From positions 1 through 38,463 of the forward strand of contig WFOA01000145.1 of assembly GCA_015488325.1 (NCBI GenBank): a DNA stretch of 38,463 nt, given 5' to 3'. The position numbers and the translations under genes are program-made. The notes under the pieces are model-generated. The model was not told the DNA's origin, did not search any database, and saw nothing but the letters and a program-made list of their open reading frames with translations. The stretch is from Acidimicrobiia bacterium (GTDB lineage Bacteria; Actinomycetota; Acidimicrobiia; Spongiisociales; ZC4RG35). Below are positions 4,236 through 38,463 of the stretch, piece by piece; the first letter of the stretch is position 1; the number at the start of each line of letters is the position of its first letter.

Positions 4236-4894
4236 CGCTCCTTCAACATCCCGTCGACGAGAACGAGGACCCGGTCCATGGCTTCGGCCACAAGCGAATC
4301 GTGGGTGGCGACGACCAGGGCCGTGTTCCCCCGTACCGTCGGATCGACCAGGGACTCGATCACCCTCTCGGATGTAGCCTCGTCGAGTGCACCTGTGGGT
4401 TCGTCGGCGAGAACGACGTCGGGGTCGTGCACGAGTGCCCGTGCGATCGCCACCCGCTGGGCCTCCCCGCCGGAGATCTCAGCCACCCGCCGGCTCCCGT
4501 ACCGACCCACCCCCAAAGCATCGAGTTGGTCCCGGGCACGTCGCTCGGCCTCCCGGCGCGGACGTCCAGCGAGCATCAACGGCAACGCGACGTTCTCCAG
4601 CACCGTGAGTTCAGGTACGAGTTCGCCGAACTGGAAGACGAATCCGAAACGCTCGAGGCGGATCCGGCTTCGGGCTCGGTCGGAGAAGGCACTGAGCTGC
4701 GCTCCTTGGAGCCAGACCTCGCCCTCGACCGGGAGAAAGAGGCCGCAGAGGAGATGGAGCAGGGTGGTCTTGCCTGTGCCGCTCGGCCCCATGATGGCCA
4801 CGGCTTCGCCGGGCTTGACGGCCAGGCTGGCCCCATCGACGACCCACAGGCCGTCGTCGCGGTACCGAAAACGCAGGTCGAGCGCCCTCAGCAT
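4232..4894 (-). CDS. ABC transporter ATP-binding protein (LolD/MacB family)
   Basis: A 220-residue cytoplasmic ATPase that powers the FtsX-like permease encoded immediately downstream. Walker A is GPSGTGKTT (about residues 36-44). The Q-loop lies in FVFQFGELVPELTV. The signature reads ISGGEAQR, a variant of LSGGQ common in the LolD/FtsE/MacB class. Walker B is VVLADEP with the catalytic Glu, followed by the D-loop and the H-loop THDS. The size is usual for the family. The start ATG at 4894 has no Shine-Dalgarno; TAGCTT sits 6 nt upstream, indicating a leaderless mRNA starting right after the terminator hairpin of the neighbouring small gene. Confidence 0.93.
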   Translation of the reverse strand: MLRALDLRFRYRDDGLWVVDGASLAVKPGEAVAIMGPSGTGKTTLLHLLCGLFLPVEGEVWLQGAQLSAFSDRARSRIRLERFGFVFQFGELVPELTVLENVALPLMLAGRPRREAERRARDQLDALGVGRYGSRRVAEISGGEAQRVAIARALVHDPDVVLADEPTGALDEATSERVIESLVDPTVRGNTALVVATHDSLVAEAMDRVLVLVDGMLKER

Positions 4895-4900
4895 GGGGTC

Positions 4901-4906
4901 AAGCTA
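4901..4906 (-). promoter_or_regulatory. Leaderless -10 element for the ABC operon
   Basis: TAGCTT lies exactly 6 nt upstream of the ATPase ATG. Its first base is also the last base of the 17-bp hairpin at 4906-4943, so the promoter and the upstream gene's terminator abut. Confidence 0.5.
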
Positions 4907-4943
4907 GCCGGGTGGGCTCCAGAATGCTGGAGCCCACCCGGCT
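4906..4943 (-). terminator. Strong rho-independent-like hairpin after the small secreted-protein gene
   Basis: A perfect 17-bp GC-rich stem (4906-4922 with 4927-4943) and an AATG loop, starting 14 nt after the stop codon of the gene at 4958-5317. A long U-tract is absent, as is common in high-GC actinobacteria. It insulates the ABC operon from the upstream gene. Confidence 0.8.
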
Positions 4944-4957
4944 GCTCGGGTTGGTCG

Positions 4958-5317
4958 CTACGCATCGGTAGTGACCCAGCTGCTGCAGTTGTTGGGATAC
5001 AACGGCACGTCCCGACACACGCGGAAGGTGATCTTCGGATTCGTCGGAGCGAGAACGAACCGCTTGACGGTGCCGCTTCCCTGCCGGTTATACAGCCTCG
5101 TGCCGGAGCCGCACGGGCCGGACCCCCAGCAGTACTCGGCGTACACAGCCATGCCATCGGCCAATGTGTCGTACACGTACATGTAGTTCGGGCTGCTGTA
5201 CCACGAGGCCTTCGCCCCCGTCGTGGTCACCGACGTGCCTGATGCCAACGCAGCTCCCGATAAGAGAGCCACCAAAGCCAGCACCGCCAGTGTTGCGAGG
5301 CCAGCGCGTCTCGCCAT
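4958..5317 (-). CDS. Small secreted protein of unknown function
   Basis: A 119-residue protein. The ATG at 5317 is preceded by a strong AAAGGAGG site. Residues 1-25 are a Sec signal peptide: a positive MARR start, a long hydrophobic core and a probable cut after ALA. The mature part is about 94 residues, rich in Tyr, Ser, Thr and Gly, with four cysteines in two CX5-8C-like pairs (CWGSGPC and CRDVPLYPNNC) that probably form disulphides. It looks like a compact beta-rich exported protein. I recognise no family. It is monocistronic: a promoter upstream with a (CA)8 spacer and a perfect hairpin terminator downstream. Expression may be phase variable through the spacer repeat (see findings). Confidence 0.8.
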   Translation of the reverse strand: MARRAGLATLAVLALVALLSGAALASGTSVTTTGAKASWYSSPNYMYVYDTLADGMAVYAEYCWGSGPCGSGTRLYNRQGSGTVKRFVLAPTNPKITFRVCRDVPLYPNNCSSWVTTDA

Positions 5318-5357
5318 GAGGCGCCCTCCTTTCTCCTCACAGCCCGCCGGCGCGCCC

Positions 5358-5386
5358 ACCATGCCACACACACACACACATGTCAA
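5358..5386 (-). promoter_or_regulatory. Promoter whose 17-nt spacer is a dinucleotide repeat
   Basis: On the minus strand a perfect TTGACA (5386-5381) is followed after exactly 17 nt by CATGGT (5363-5358), a weak -10. The spacer is (TG)8 plus one G. Transcription would start near 5350, about 20-25 nt upstream of the AAAGGAGG site of the small secreted-protein gene. Gain or loss of TG units would change the spacer by 2 nt steps. Confidence 0.6.
5365..5380. repeat. (CA)8 dinucleotide repeat
   Basis: Eight uninterrupted CA units (TG on the minus strand), the only clear dinucleotide microsatellite I noticed in the window. It sits precisely between the -35 and -10 of the small secreted-protein promoter. 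Confidence 0.95.
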
Positions 5387-5444
5387 CCCCTTGCTCTCGG
5401 GTACCGGATCGCGGAACCCGCCAGCTACTGCACACGGATACGTC

Positions 5445-5470
5445 GGGGGGCGGCCATCGGGCCGCCCCCC
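5445..5470 (-). terminator. GC-rich hairpin terminator after pnp
   Basis: A perfect 11-bp stem of GGGGGGCGGCC (5445-5455) with its complement at 5460-5470 and a 4-nt loop, 21 nt after the pnp stop codon. It closes the rpsO-pnp unit. No U-tract. Confidence 0.75.
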
Positions 5471-5491
5471 TTGGTCGTGGGTTCGTGACGT

Positions 5492-7852
5492 TCAGCCTCG
5501 GGTGAGGTCCTCGAAGGTCTCCTCGAAGGACGGCGCCACCCGGCGGCGCTCGGAACGCTGCTGCGGCTTCTGTTCGGCACGGGATTCGGAGCGGCGCTCG
5601 CCTCGCTCACGACCTCCCCGGTCGCCGCCCCGGCCACGGTCGCGGTCACGCCGCTCCCGACCGCCGTCGCCCGAACGGCGCCCTTCGGAGCCGCCGCCTG
5701 ACGGACCTTCCACGGGTTCGGCCAGGTCGAGGCTCAGCTTGCCGTTGCGGTCGACCTCCCGGAGCACCACCTTGACCCGATCGCCCAACTTCAGGTAGTC
5801 CTCCACCCGTTCGACCCGGCGGGACGGGTCGATCTTCGAGATGTGCAGCAGGCCATCCCGACCGGGGAGGATGTTGATGAACGCACCGAACTTGGTGATG
5901 TTCACCACCTCGCCCTCGTACGTCTTCCCGATCTCCGGTTCCGGCGGGTAGACGATCTGCATGATCCGCTGCTTGGCATCCTCCAACACCCCGCCGTCGT
6001 TGGAGGCGATCCGGACGATGCCGTAGCCGTCCTCCTCGTCGATCTCGATGGTGGCGCCGGTGAGCTCCTCCAGCTCCCGAACCACCTTGCCCTTCGGCCC
6101 GATGACCTCGCCGATCTTGTCCTTGGGGATCTGAAGCGACTCGATCCGCGGTGCCCACCGGTTCAGCTCGGGACGCGGGGCGGGGATCACCGCCTTCATC
6201 GCGTCGAGGATCTTCAGCCTCGCCCGTTTCGCCTGGTCGAGGGCTCTCGTCAGCACCTCGGACGGAAGCCCTTGGATCTTCGTGTCGAGCTGCAGGGCCG
6301 TGATCACGTTCTCGGTCCCCGCCACCTTGAAGTCCATGTCGCCGAGGGCGTCTTCCGCACCGAGGATGTCGGTGAGGGTGACGAACTCGCCGTCCTGGTG
6401 GATCAGCCCCATGGCGATCCCGGCCACCGGCTCGGAGATCGGCACCCCGGCGTCCATGAGGGACAGCGACGACGCGCACACCGACGCCATCGACGTCGAC
6501 CCGTTCGACGACAGCACCTCCGAGACGAGACGGAGCGCGTAGGGGAACTCGTCCTCGGTGGGTACCACCGGGAGCACCGCCTTCTCGGCGAGGGCGCCGT
6601 GTCCGATCTCGCGTCGCTTCGGACCCCGCATGAAGCCGGCCTCACCGACCGAGAACGGCGGGAAGTTGTAGTGGTGCATGTAGCGCTTCGACTCCTCGAT
6701 CCCGAGGTTGTCGAGCATCTGCTCCATCTTCAGCATCCCCAACGTGGTGATGTTGAGCACCTGGGTCTCGCCCCGCTGGAACAGACCCGAGCCGTGGGTG
6801 CGCTCCACCACACCGACTTCGACGGTGAGGGGCCGCAGATCCTCGGGTCCCCGACCGTCGAGCCGCACCCCCTCTTTCACCACCCGGTCGCGCATCATGT
6901 CCTTCAGCAGCGCCTTGAAGGCCTTCTTGACGTCGGCCTCCTGGTCTTCGTCGACACCGAGTTCGGCGATCACCTCGGCGAGGGCGGCCTCTTCTGCCTC
7001 TTGGCGCTCGTGTTTGCCGGCGATGGTGATCACGTCACGTAGCTTCGGCGCGGCCACATCCCTGACCCGGTCGACGAGCGACTCGTCGAGGGGTTCGACC
7101 CGAGGCCACTCCACCTCGACCTTCTCCACCTGGGAGAGGAGCTCGAGCTGAAGGTCGAGCGCCTGGGCGATGTAGTCCTTCGCCTCCTCCAGGCCGCGGG
7201 CGACGGTCTCCTCGTCGCTGGGGGTGTCGCCTTCGGCTACGAGGCGGAGCCCGTCGGGAGTGGCCCCGGCCTCCACCATCATGATGTCGATCACCCCGTC
7301 GGGATTCCTCCTGCCGGCTACCACCAGTTCGAACACCGACTGTTCGAGATCCTCGTGGGTGGGGAACGGCACCCAGATCCCCTTCTTCAATCCCAGCCTG
7401 ACGGCCCCGATGGGCCCTTGGAACGGAATCGGGCTCACCATGAGAGCCGCCGAGGCGCCGTTGAGGGCGACCACGTCGAAGGGATTCTCGGTGTCGACCG
7501 CCAGGGTGGTGACGACCACCTGGGTCTCACACCGGAACCAGTCCTCGAAGGAGGGACGGAGGGGACGGTCGATGAGCCGGGCGGCGAGGATCGCCTGCTC
7601 GGTGGGACGCCCCTCCCGACGGAAGAACGAGCCGGGGATCCTCCCGGCGGCGTACATCCGCTCCTCGAAGTCAACGGTGAGGGGGAAGAAGTCGATCCCC
7701 TCCCGGAGACGTTTGTTGGCGGTGGCGGTGACGAGCATCTCGGTCCCGCCGAGTTTCGCCACCACCGCGCCGTCGGCTTGGGGGGCGAGTTTGCCGGTGC
7801 TGAAGACGAACTCTTTGTCGCCAATCGCACCACGTACGGTGATTTCGGGCAC
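5492..7852 (-). CDS. pnp: Polyribonucleotide nucleotidyltransferase (PNPase)
   Basis: A 786-residue phosphorolytic 3'-5' exoribonuclease of RNA decay, acting as a cytoplasmic trimer. Two RNase PH-like domains are joined by the helical linker; the first carries FFRREGRPTEQ and DRPLRPSF, and the second contains the active core. A KH domain (about 575-640, GPKGK loop) and an S1 domain (about 640-714, KFGAFINILPGRDGLLHIS) follow. Residues 715-786 are an unusually long Arg/Gly/Glu-rich disordered tail ending FEETFEDLTRG. The start is GTG at 7852 with AAAAGGAG about 8 nt upstream. The gene follows rpsO, the universal order. Two hairpins in the intergenic region probably act in termination or mRNA processing. 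Confidence 0.98.
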   Translation of the reverse strand: MPEITVRGAIGDKEFVFSTGKLAPQADGAVVAKLGGTEMLVTATANKRLREGIDFFPLTVDFEERMYAAGRIPGSFFRREGRPTEQAILAARLIDRPLRPSFEDWFRCETQVVVTTLAVDTENPFDVVALNGASAALMVSPIPFQGPIGAVRLGLKKGIWVPFPTHEDLEQSVFELVVAGRRNPDGVIDIMMVEAGATPDGLRLVAEGDTPSDEETVARGLEEAKDYIAQALDLQLELLSQVEKVEVEWPRVEPLDESLVDRVRDVAAPKLRDVITIAGKHERQEAEEAALAEVIAELGVDEDQEADVKKAFKALLKDMMRDRVVKEGVRLDGRGPEDLRPLTVEVGVVERTHGSGLFQRGETQVLNITTLGMLKMEQMLDNLGIEESKRYMHHYNFPPFSVGEAGFMRGPKRREIGHGALAEKAVLPVVPTEDEFPYALRLVSEVLSSNGSTSMASVCASSLSLMDAGVPISEPVAGIAMGLIHQDGEFVTLTDILGAEDALGDMDFKVAGTENVITALQLDTKIQGLPSEVLTRALDQAKRARLKILDAMKAVIPAPRPELNRWAPRIESLQIPKDKIGEVIGPKGKVVRELEELTGATIEIDEEDGYGIVRIASNDGGVLEDAKQRIMQIVYPPEPEIGKTYEGEVVNITKFGAFINILPGRDGLLHISKIDPSRRVERVEDYLKLGDRVKVVLREVDRNGKLSLDLAEPVEGPSGGGSEGRRSGDGGRERRDRDRGRGGDRGGRERGERRSESRAEQKPQQRSERRRVAPSFEETFEDLTRG

Positions 7853-36798: not shown

Positions 36799-37434
36799 TC
36801 ATCCGGTGAGCGTGCGGATCTCCGATGCGAGCTCGTCGACGGTCAGGCCGACGAGCTGGTGGGCGGCCCGACCGGAACCTTCGAGGGGAGTCGCCAGCTT
36901 CCCGTCCGCTCCCACCCAGAGGATCCCGTCGAAGCTGACCAGGCTGTGGGTCACCCCGGTCGCTTCGACGGAGCGCTTCGACGCCGGCTGGAGGAACAGC
37001 ACGAGCTCGTCGCCGACGTCGGGGGCCTGCAATCCGTTGAGTATCATCGGGGTCTCTTCACCCGTTCCGAGGTCGACGCTGGGGCCCAGGAATTCGAACG
37101 AGATCGTCCGGCCCGGCGACGCCCCTCGGAGGACGTCTTCGAGGGTCACATCCACCCGGTAGACGGTCAACGCCAGCCCTTCGAGCTCGTTCGGGTCCGT
37201 GCGTGCCACTTCCACCGATTGCACACGCCCGCTCACCACCAGAGGCGTCGCCGCCACCAGATCGGCCACCGCCGCGAACGTCTGGTCCTCGGTGGCGAAT
37301 GCGGAGACCACTGCTTCACCCTCGTCCACGTCCGGACGCTCATCAACGGTGCCACTCGGCGCGCACGCAGCAGAACTCAGGCCGAGCACCACGAACAAAC
37401 CCAGACAAACGGTGTTACGAAACATCTCGATCAT
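36799..37434 (-). CDS. Probable lipoprotein of unknown function
   Basis: A 211-residue exported protein. The N-terminal hydrophobic stretch LGLFVVLGLSSAAC suggests a lipoprotein signal peptide with Cys24 as the lipidated residue, though the position before it (SSAA) is a weak lipobox. A Glu/Asp-rich linker follows, then a beta-rich domain (about 50-211): alternating strands such as VVSGRVQSVEVART, LTVYRVDVTLEDVL and DELVLFLQPA. I recognise no family. GGAGGG lies just upstream; ATG at 37425 is an equally good start. It follows the protease-like gene on the same strand and converges with sppA. Confidence 0.75.
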   Translation of the reverse strand: MIEMFRNTVCLGLFVVLGLSSAACAPSGTVDERPDVDEGEAVVSAFATEDQTFAAVADLVAATPLVVSGRVQSVEVARTDPNELEGLALTVYRVDVTLEDVLRGASPGRTISFEFLGPSVDLGTGEETPMILNGLQAPDVGDELVLFLQPASKRSVEATGVTHSLVSFDGILWVGADGKLATPLEGSGRAAHQLVGLTVDELASEIRTLTG

Positions 37435-37462: not shown

Positions 37463-37520
37463 CCGTCGTCTCCATGCTCATCCCCGTCTTCGGAACCGAA
37501 GAGGTCAGTATCGGGGAAGG

Positions 37521-38105
37521 TCAGTATCGGGCATTGATATGGCTCTGCTCATGCCACACCGTATCGAGGACACCGTTGTTGATGTCGCCGCCTCCGAGGC
37601 ACCCGTAGGGGGCTAGGGTGATCCCTGAATCCTTGAACCCCACGGTGTGGACCAGTTCATGGCACACCTTCTGTCGAAGAGAGTTGGATGACTGTCCAGG
37701 ATCGTTGTCGAACACTACCTGCCAGTGATCGCACCGAAACGTGTCACCAGCAACGTAGATATTGCAGGTAGCAAGACCTCCCAGCGGAGCGGGGAGATCC
37801 GACGCCCACCATGACAAGTCCACATGGGGCGTCGAGCTGTTGCAGCAGTTCAAATGGCAAGAATCCTCCGACAGCGAGAGATCCGTCTTCGCATCAAGTT
37901 CGTTCTCGGTGACGTCCTGCATCCTCCAATAGAACACCAACAGGTCCGCTGTGTCGCTCTCCGCGGTCCACCAGGTATGAGACCTGGTATCGGCATACGG
38001 TGCCCCAAACCCATGGGCCAAAGCTACAGCAGCCGGAATCATGAGTACCAGCGTGAATGTGACGAACAGCGCTCCCCGGGTCTGCCTCGTCTCGGTCACC
38101 TCCAC
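37521..38105 (-). CDS. Secreted zinc metalloprotease-like protein, HExxHxxGxxD
   Basis: A 194-residue protein. Residues 11-30 are a signal peptide or membrane segment. The core VCHELVHTVGFKD fits HExxHxxGxxD, H149-E150-H153-D159, the metzincin-like motif with Asp as third ligand found in snapalysin-type (M7) and some matrixin-like proteases; a second HEQSH motif lies near the C-terminus. Seven Cys suggest disulphides (including CHLNCC, about 83-88). Overall similarity is unclear, so activity is inference. Start GTG at 38105; an in-frame GTG at 38099 is possible. It is divergent from the gene at the right edge. Confidence 0.65.
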   Translation of the reverse strand: MEVTETRQTRGALFVTFTLVLMIPAAVALAHGFGAPYADTRSHTWWTAESDTADLLVFYWRMQDVTENELDAKTDLSLSEDSCHLNCCNSSTPHVDLSWWASDLPAPLGGLATCNIYVAGDTFRCDHWQVVFDNDPGQSSNSLRQKVCHELVHTVGFKDSGITLAPYGCLGGGDINNGVLDTVWHEQSHINARY

Positions 38106-38166
38106 CTGTCGGGTGAAGATGACAACCTACGGGTCGTCTCCGGTGTTCGTCTAGACCGAAACCGCC

Positions 38167-38208
38167 ATTTGGCACTGCCGGTGCCAGATTTGGCAGTGCC
38201 AGTGCCAC
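38167..38208. repeat. Tandem 21-bp operator-like repeat
   Basis: Two adjacent 21-bp units (38167-38187, 38188-38208) differ at three positions. Each carries the dyad TGGCA-N7-TGCCA. In addition TGGCACTGCC (38170-38179) is the exact complement of GGCAGTGCCA (38192-38201). Two-helical-turn spacing puts both dyads on one DNA face, typical of cooperative regulator binding. It lies between divergent genes, about 15 bp upstream of the -35 of the right-edge promoter. Confidence 0.8.
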
Positions 38209-38223
38209 CCTGCCGATCGGCAT

Positions 38224-38252
38224 CCGACACAGCGTCGAACCGCTGGTAGCCT
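38224..38252 (+). promoter_or_regulatory. Promoter of the right-edge gene
   Basis: CCGACA (38224-38229), a 17-nt spacer and TAGCCT (38247-38252). With the tandem dyads just upstream, activation rather than repression fits. Confidence 0.5.
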
Positions 38253-38286: not shown

Positions 38287-38463
38287 GTGCGCCAGGTCAA
38301 CCTCACCATCGGGAACGACCCCTACTTGCTCGAACACGTCACTCAACTCGTCACCCACACCGGCCGATCCTTTCGGCTCGACGACACCGACCACGGCTGG
38401 CGCTACCACATCGCCTACCCCGACCACCCGCCCGGACCGAACGTCGACGTGGTCCTCCTCACC
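38287..38463 (+). CDS. Unknown protein, partial at right edge
   Basis: A GTG-initiated frame stays open for 59 codons to the window end. It has a proper promoter and repeat operator upstream; a G-run sits before the start instead of a normal ribosome site. The visible part (with FRLDDTDHGWRYHIAYPDH) is polar, with no signal peptide or TM. I recognise no family. Confidence 0.55.
   Translation, partial: MRQVNLTIGNDPYLLEHVTQLVTHTGRSFRLDDTDHGWRYHIAYPDHPPGPNVDVVLLT

Follow-up and report, generated by a model that had tools for sequence, protein, structure and literature searches.

Two TGGCA-N7-TGCCA dyads at the right end of the 38,463-nucleotide stretch analysed here (the window) probably, on balance, form the shared operator of an autoregulated divergent switch, whose binder would be the protein encoded at the right edge and which would govern a small secreted-protease regulon. 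Contig C145, from an incomplete genome (G000; 2.89 Mb, 162 contigs, 98% complete), makes up the entire window, so the rightward gene is truncated by the end of the assembly. The dyads sit between this gene and a leftward pair of genes for a secreted metalloprotease-like protein and a lipoprotein-like protein. According to our model, a single DNA-binding protein would bind as two neighbouring dimers, spaced by two helical turns along one face of the helix, and would control both the leftward pair and the rightward gene from approximately 60 bp upstream of both predicted transcript starts. The rightward gene most likely encodes the binder, predicted to have an orphan N-terminal domain and a C-terminal LuxR/NarL-like helix-turn-helix; the circuit would then regulate itself. 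Cassette copies ahead of other secreted-protein operons would bring a small regulon under the same control. Protein-DNA binding, the identity of the binder, cooperativity, activation and the signal belong to the predicted part of this model.

The dyads are real and occupy positions 38170-38186 and 38191-38207, 21 bp apart, where the original prediction had placed them. The two occurrences of TGGCA-N7-TGCCA in the window compare with an expectation of 0.02, and none of 100 dinucleotide shuffles contained two. The repeated unit is ATTTGGCASTGCCRGTGCCA, a 20-nt sequence whose copies are 90% identical at a spacing of 21. Candidate operator unit 1 spans 38167-38186 of the forward strand (dyad core 38170-38186), with its centre at -61 from the predicted protease transcript start, and candidate unit 2 spans 38188-38207 of the same strand (core 38191-38207), with its centre at -60 from the predicted right-edge transcript start. 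The sites are pseudo-palindromic beyond the TGGCA/TGCCA arms. When 13 sites from 7 loci are aligned, positions 2-5 and 15-17 are invariant and the arms are nearly invariant overall, while the centre carries G at position 8 and C at position 10, each in 12 of 13 sites. The proposal that these repeats are operators is backed both by this conservation and by their recurrence at promoters.

The leftward operon begins with the metalloprotease-like gene (37521-38105, reverse strand), recognised by the motif HELVHTVGFKD in its translation. The protein has no Pfam or NCBIfam match and its structure model is poor (pLDDT 38.8). The second gene of the pair, lipoprotein-like by its translation, spans 36799-37434 on the reverse strand. 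A short contig of the same genome, C80, is 100% identical over positions 1-131 to window positions 37482-37612, which are part of the protease gene, and past this match continues into a transposase-bearing element; this suggests that the population holds a strain with an interrupted protease gene. The predicted promoter of the protease operon consists of a -35 element, TAGACG (38148-38153, reverse strand), found at the same position and with the same sequence in two further cassettes of the genome on contig C86, and a -10 element, TAGGTT (38124-38129, reverse strand), across an 18-nt spacer. Counterparts of the -35 element are TTGACG in a congener, G001, and TCGACG in G041 (record DRQR01000117.1, Actinomycetota MAG HyVt-587), which belongs to another family of the same order. 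On the right, CCGACA at 38224-38229 is followed after 17 nt by TAGCCT at 38247-38252, downstream of the dyads as had been claimed; this predicted promoter (38224-38252, forward strand) recurs with identical hexamers and spacer length at one G001 locus, C222. Promoters were picked by eye from conserved hexamers and the transcript starts are predictions; a stricter generic sigma-70 scan of the region found no promoter.

Distances were computed with the -10 hexamer taken to end at -7. The dyad centres of the window lie at -61/-82 from the protease promoter and at -60/-81 from the right-edge promoter. Both C86 cassettes place them at -61/-82, and in G041 they are found at -60/-81 and -59/-80. The G001 centres are at -59/-80 on the right side and at -54/-75 on the protease side (the -54 site only at cassette C289B), the latter spacing being 7 bp shorter than in the window, which is not a whole helical turn and counts against the model. 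Positions near -61 are typical of activators that contact RNA polymerase from upstream, and the cooperative activation envisaged in the original prediction is compatible with the predicted geometry.

The special feature is the tandem 21-bp form, not the single dyad. Single dyads are not enriched across the 2.89 Mb genome, where the true pattern occurs at 5 places and a reversed control at 15. A zero-mismatch scan with the 20-bp motif ATTTGGCANTGNCNNTNCCA returned six sites, all of them in three tandem pairs at three loci: the window and the two C86 cassettes, C86A and C86B (C86:30726-30766 and C86:32658-32698). All three loci are upstream of secreted-protein operons and have the same promoter, TAGACG-N18-TAGGTT; both C86 pairs precede leftward genes for exported proteins. 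C86A is followed by a matrixin-like protease (PF00413, 26.6 bits, cut-off 24) and then a lipoprotein-like gene, and C86B by a small secreted protein and then another exported protein. Identity is 89% over 310 bp between the two C86 cassettes, and 75% over 145 bp between C86A and the window cassette. The window and C86A proteases are not alignable, so the promoter module is common to unrelated genes; the lipoprotein-like partners are not alignable either (E 0.23). The genome scan, proposed originally as a route to co-regulated genes, yields as candidates the window protease, the C86 matrixin-like protease and lipoprotein, and the C86 small secreted protein. It also found no interspersed copies outside promoters, the observation that had been named in advance as contrary to an operator. 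A further pair of genes for a matrixin-like protease and a lipoprotein, on contig C58 (197-886), has no dyads upstream, so not every paralogue belongs to the putative regulon.

A 31-base tandem pattern, allowing up to three mismatches, is present in 2 of 99 genomes, the source genome and G001. The congener carries three cassettes, with 2, 2 and 1 full dyads, and a TTTGGCG half-site against the -35 element. C289A precedes a matrixin-like protease (PF00413, 36.5 bits) and then a lipoprotein homologous to that of C86A (34%, E 2e-16), C289B lies ahead of a small secreted protein, and C222 keeps the promoter and has no protease gene. The small secreted proteins of C86B and C289B have no detectable homology (E 0.14), and the genes following them match only at E 0.001. 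All three G001 cassettes retain, beside the dyads, the right-edge promoter and the first part of the right-edge gene; the gene is a relic at C222 and C289B, and the C289A copy runs off its contig. A transposase-bearing insertion at approximately 150-1690 of C289, with GGTTG at both edges, separates the right-edge promoter from the C289A dyads and would sever the regulator gene from its operator. After the cassette pair, C289 encodes a predicted secreted protein of 968 aa, with repeats rich in glycine and aspartate (4433-7339).

G041 keeps the whole divergent locus in the same order: lipoprotein, protease, tandem dyads and a complete right-edge gene of 181 codons. The protease and lipoprotein-like genes of the window have homologues at the same place there, with 32% identity (E 2e-21) and 31% identity over 162 columns (E 2e-9), respectively. 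Both G041 dyads are present at the 21-bp spacing, and such a pair arose in none of 200,000 shuffles of the 205-bp intergenic region. When the window is compared with G041, the half-sites match at 17 of 20 positions; the figure is 6 of 14 for the centres and 21 of 46 for the remainder of the 80-nt region upstream of the -35 element, an excess of half-site conservation with a random-position P of 0.0017. At this one gene pair, different species have kept both the place and the sequence of the sites. The exact tandem pattern occurs in 8 of 138 genomes of the order, and was seen at this kind of locus in G000, G001 and G041; the remaining five genomes (G006, G071, G078, G079 and G303) equal in number those with the reversed control (5). 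The original prediction had offered the right-edge gene or the divergent protease as the target. The secreted-protein side is constant at all three G000 loci and at the two gene-bearing G001 cassettes, and relatives conserve the right-edge promoter as well.

The strongest candidate for the missing regulator is the right-edge gene (38287-38463, forward strand). Codons 1-59, which precede the contig end, are 57% identical to the N-terminus of the 181-aa G041 protein. A stretch 67% identical to residues 132-167 of that protein (36 aa) stands exactly at the end of another contig, C14, followed by a small P-loop gene and then two genes, presumably boxB and boxC, that are also found after the regulator relic at C222. 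From this tail and these shared neighbours, C145 and C14 probably adjoin with approximately 215 bases missing; the middle of the window copy (approximately codons 60-131) is absent from the assembly. The C-terminus of the G041 protein has matches in 25 of 395 genomes of the class at E <= 1e-4, including G000, G001 and G041. Read in the right frame, these matches include LuxR-type regulators of other class members, with E down to about 1e-6, and all eight relatives scanned carry Pfam GerE. A profile built from 12 of these relatives scores the G041 protein at 43.9 bits, whereas none of 500 shuffles exceeds 4.1; the profile score is partly circular because the 12 sequences were found with the G041 protein itself.

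A C-terminal motif, LWRLVATGTPNPRIARLLGYSPRTLQRRLPGFYRLLGAS, aligns with the LuxR/NarL (GerE) proteins, and the likeness may extend to four predicted C-terminal helices (residues 113-121, 126-131, 136-150 and 155-166 in a poor model of the G041 protein, pLDDT 51.6). Compared with the PDB, this model gives NarL (1je8) a probability of 0.89 and DosR (1zlk) one of 0.72, with no match at E <= 0.001. The protein differs in scoring below the Pfam GerE (PF00196) cut-off (11.1 bits against 23.5), and no receiver or autoinducer domain was detected; with this score and the weak fold model, we do not file it as a proven family member. The N-terminal domain of the G041 protein matched no Pfam family and no plasmid, and among 396 sampled genomes of the phylum it was found in one, the window's own; its other occurrences are at the G041 and G001 loci. 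A possible further homologue in G075 was dropped (E 0.009, with a stop inside). The C-terminal half of the regulator also has a diverged paralogue in G001, at the start of contig C9 (6-299; 36% identity; 12.8 bits to PF00196, also below the cut-off of 23.5); this paralogue might be that species' active regulator. The original prediction had left the regulator unnamed, and the predicted C-terminal helix-turn-helix of the G041 homologue, which resembles the LuxR/NarL type, now makes the right-edge gene a concrete candidate for encoding the binder.

Other readings of the dyads place the binder elsewhere or reverse its effect. They could be the operator of an unlinked regulator for which the right-edge gene is merely another target, as both C86 cassettes and C289B have dyads without an intact adjacent regulator gene and the helix-turn-helix assignment falls under the Pfam cut-off. 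We consider this unlikely, since the right-edge gene is the divergent neighbour in both the window and G041, which come from different families, and the exact tandem pattern was seen at such a locus only in genomes that have the right-edge gene or relics of it (G000, G001 and G041). It is rather unlikely that the sites serve a repressor, acting by looping or by blocking polymerase, instead of an activator. Autorepression is common among divergent regulators, and protein bound at the G001 half-site TTTGGCG, which abuts the -35 element, could block polymerase; the full dyads of the window and G041, however, stop 13-16 bp short of both -35 elements on the upstream side, which would leave both promoters free.

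Readings that dispense with a dedicated binder fare far worse. The dyad arms could pair as hairpins, and transposases occur in the vicinity of some cassettes of relatives, as well as on C80, but it is very improbable that the repeat is an interspersed element, the end of a mobile element or a structured RNA. An interspersed element was rejected on the restriction to three promoter-associated loci in this genome, and an RNA element or terminator was rejected because there is no Rfam match and no terminator-like site; the dyads also lie upstream of both predicted starts. The least credible reading is a sigma-54 (-24/-12) promoter, whose consensus TGGCAC-N5-TTGCA is approached by TGGCAC-N5-GTGCC, with GG and GC ten bases apart in each unit. 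It is disfavoured because no RpoN was found in the 98%-complete genome in a search for Sigma54_DBD (PF04552), the control search being positive in 4 of 14 known genomes. Moreover, the sites are palindromic and in tandem, with sigma-70-like hexamers at a fixed distance.

As an autoregulated divergent switch, the locus would turn an anonymous repeat into a testable system for which a candidate binder can be named, and this in an uncultured group of actinobacteria that has received little study. One operator-promoter module is common to a small secreted protein and to two protease families with no relation to each other, with scars of the regulator gene beside copies in the congener, and the whole may be a compact example of a regulon that has grown as a divergent control cassette was duplicated. 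A bolder version is possible, although we lean against it: a new lineage-restricted regulator family, with an orphan N-terminal domain and a LuxR-like helix-turn-helix, would run a regulon of secreted proteases whose growth comes from copying of its own divergent control cassette, the extra cassettes carrying broken regulator 5' ends as scars and being captured by unrelated secreted-protein genes. No description of the dyad motif or the locus was found in the open-access literature searched; the kind of system is familiar, and what appears new is the sequence of the operator together with the N-terminal domain.

By analogy, the nearest described case in working principle is DevR/DosR of M. tuberculosis at the divergent tgs1-Rv3131 genes, where a regulator with a NarL-type helix-turn-helix binds two adjacent sites cooperatively and is autoregulated (PMC3029386). 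Both systems have two adjacent sites between divergent genes, the LuxR/NarL-like helix-turn-helix, binding and autoregulation being predicted here. Promoter-proximal DevR sites commonly overlap the -35 element (PMC3029386), whereas the dyads here end 16 bp upstream. DevR also has a phosphorylated receiver domain, in contrast to the unmatched N-terminal domain of the candidate regulator. The DosR box has a sequence other than that of the dyads. A second parallel is snapalysin (snpA) of Streptomyces, a secreted HExxHxxGxxD metalloprotease with a divergent LysR-type activator, which shares with the window a protease of this kind adjoining a divergent gene, in the window a candidate regulator gene. 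LysR regulators have an N-terminal helix-turn-helix and another type of site, whereas here a C-terminal helix-turn-helix is predicted, and its putative sites are 17-bp palindromes in tandem.
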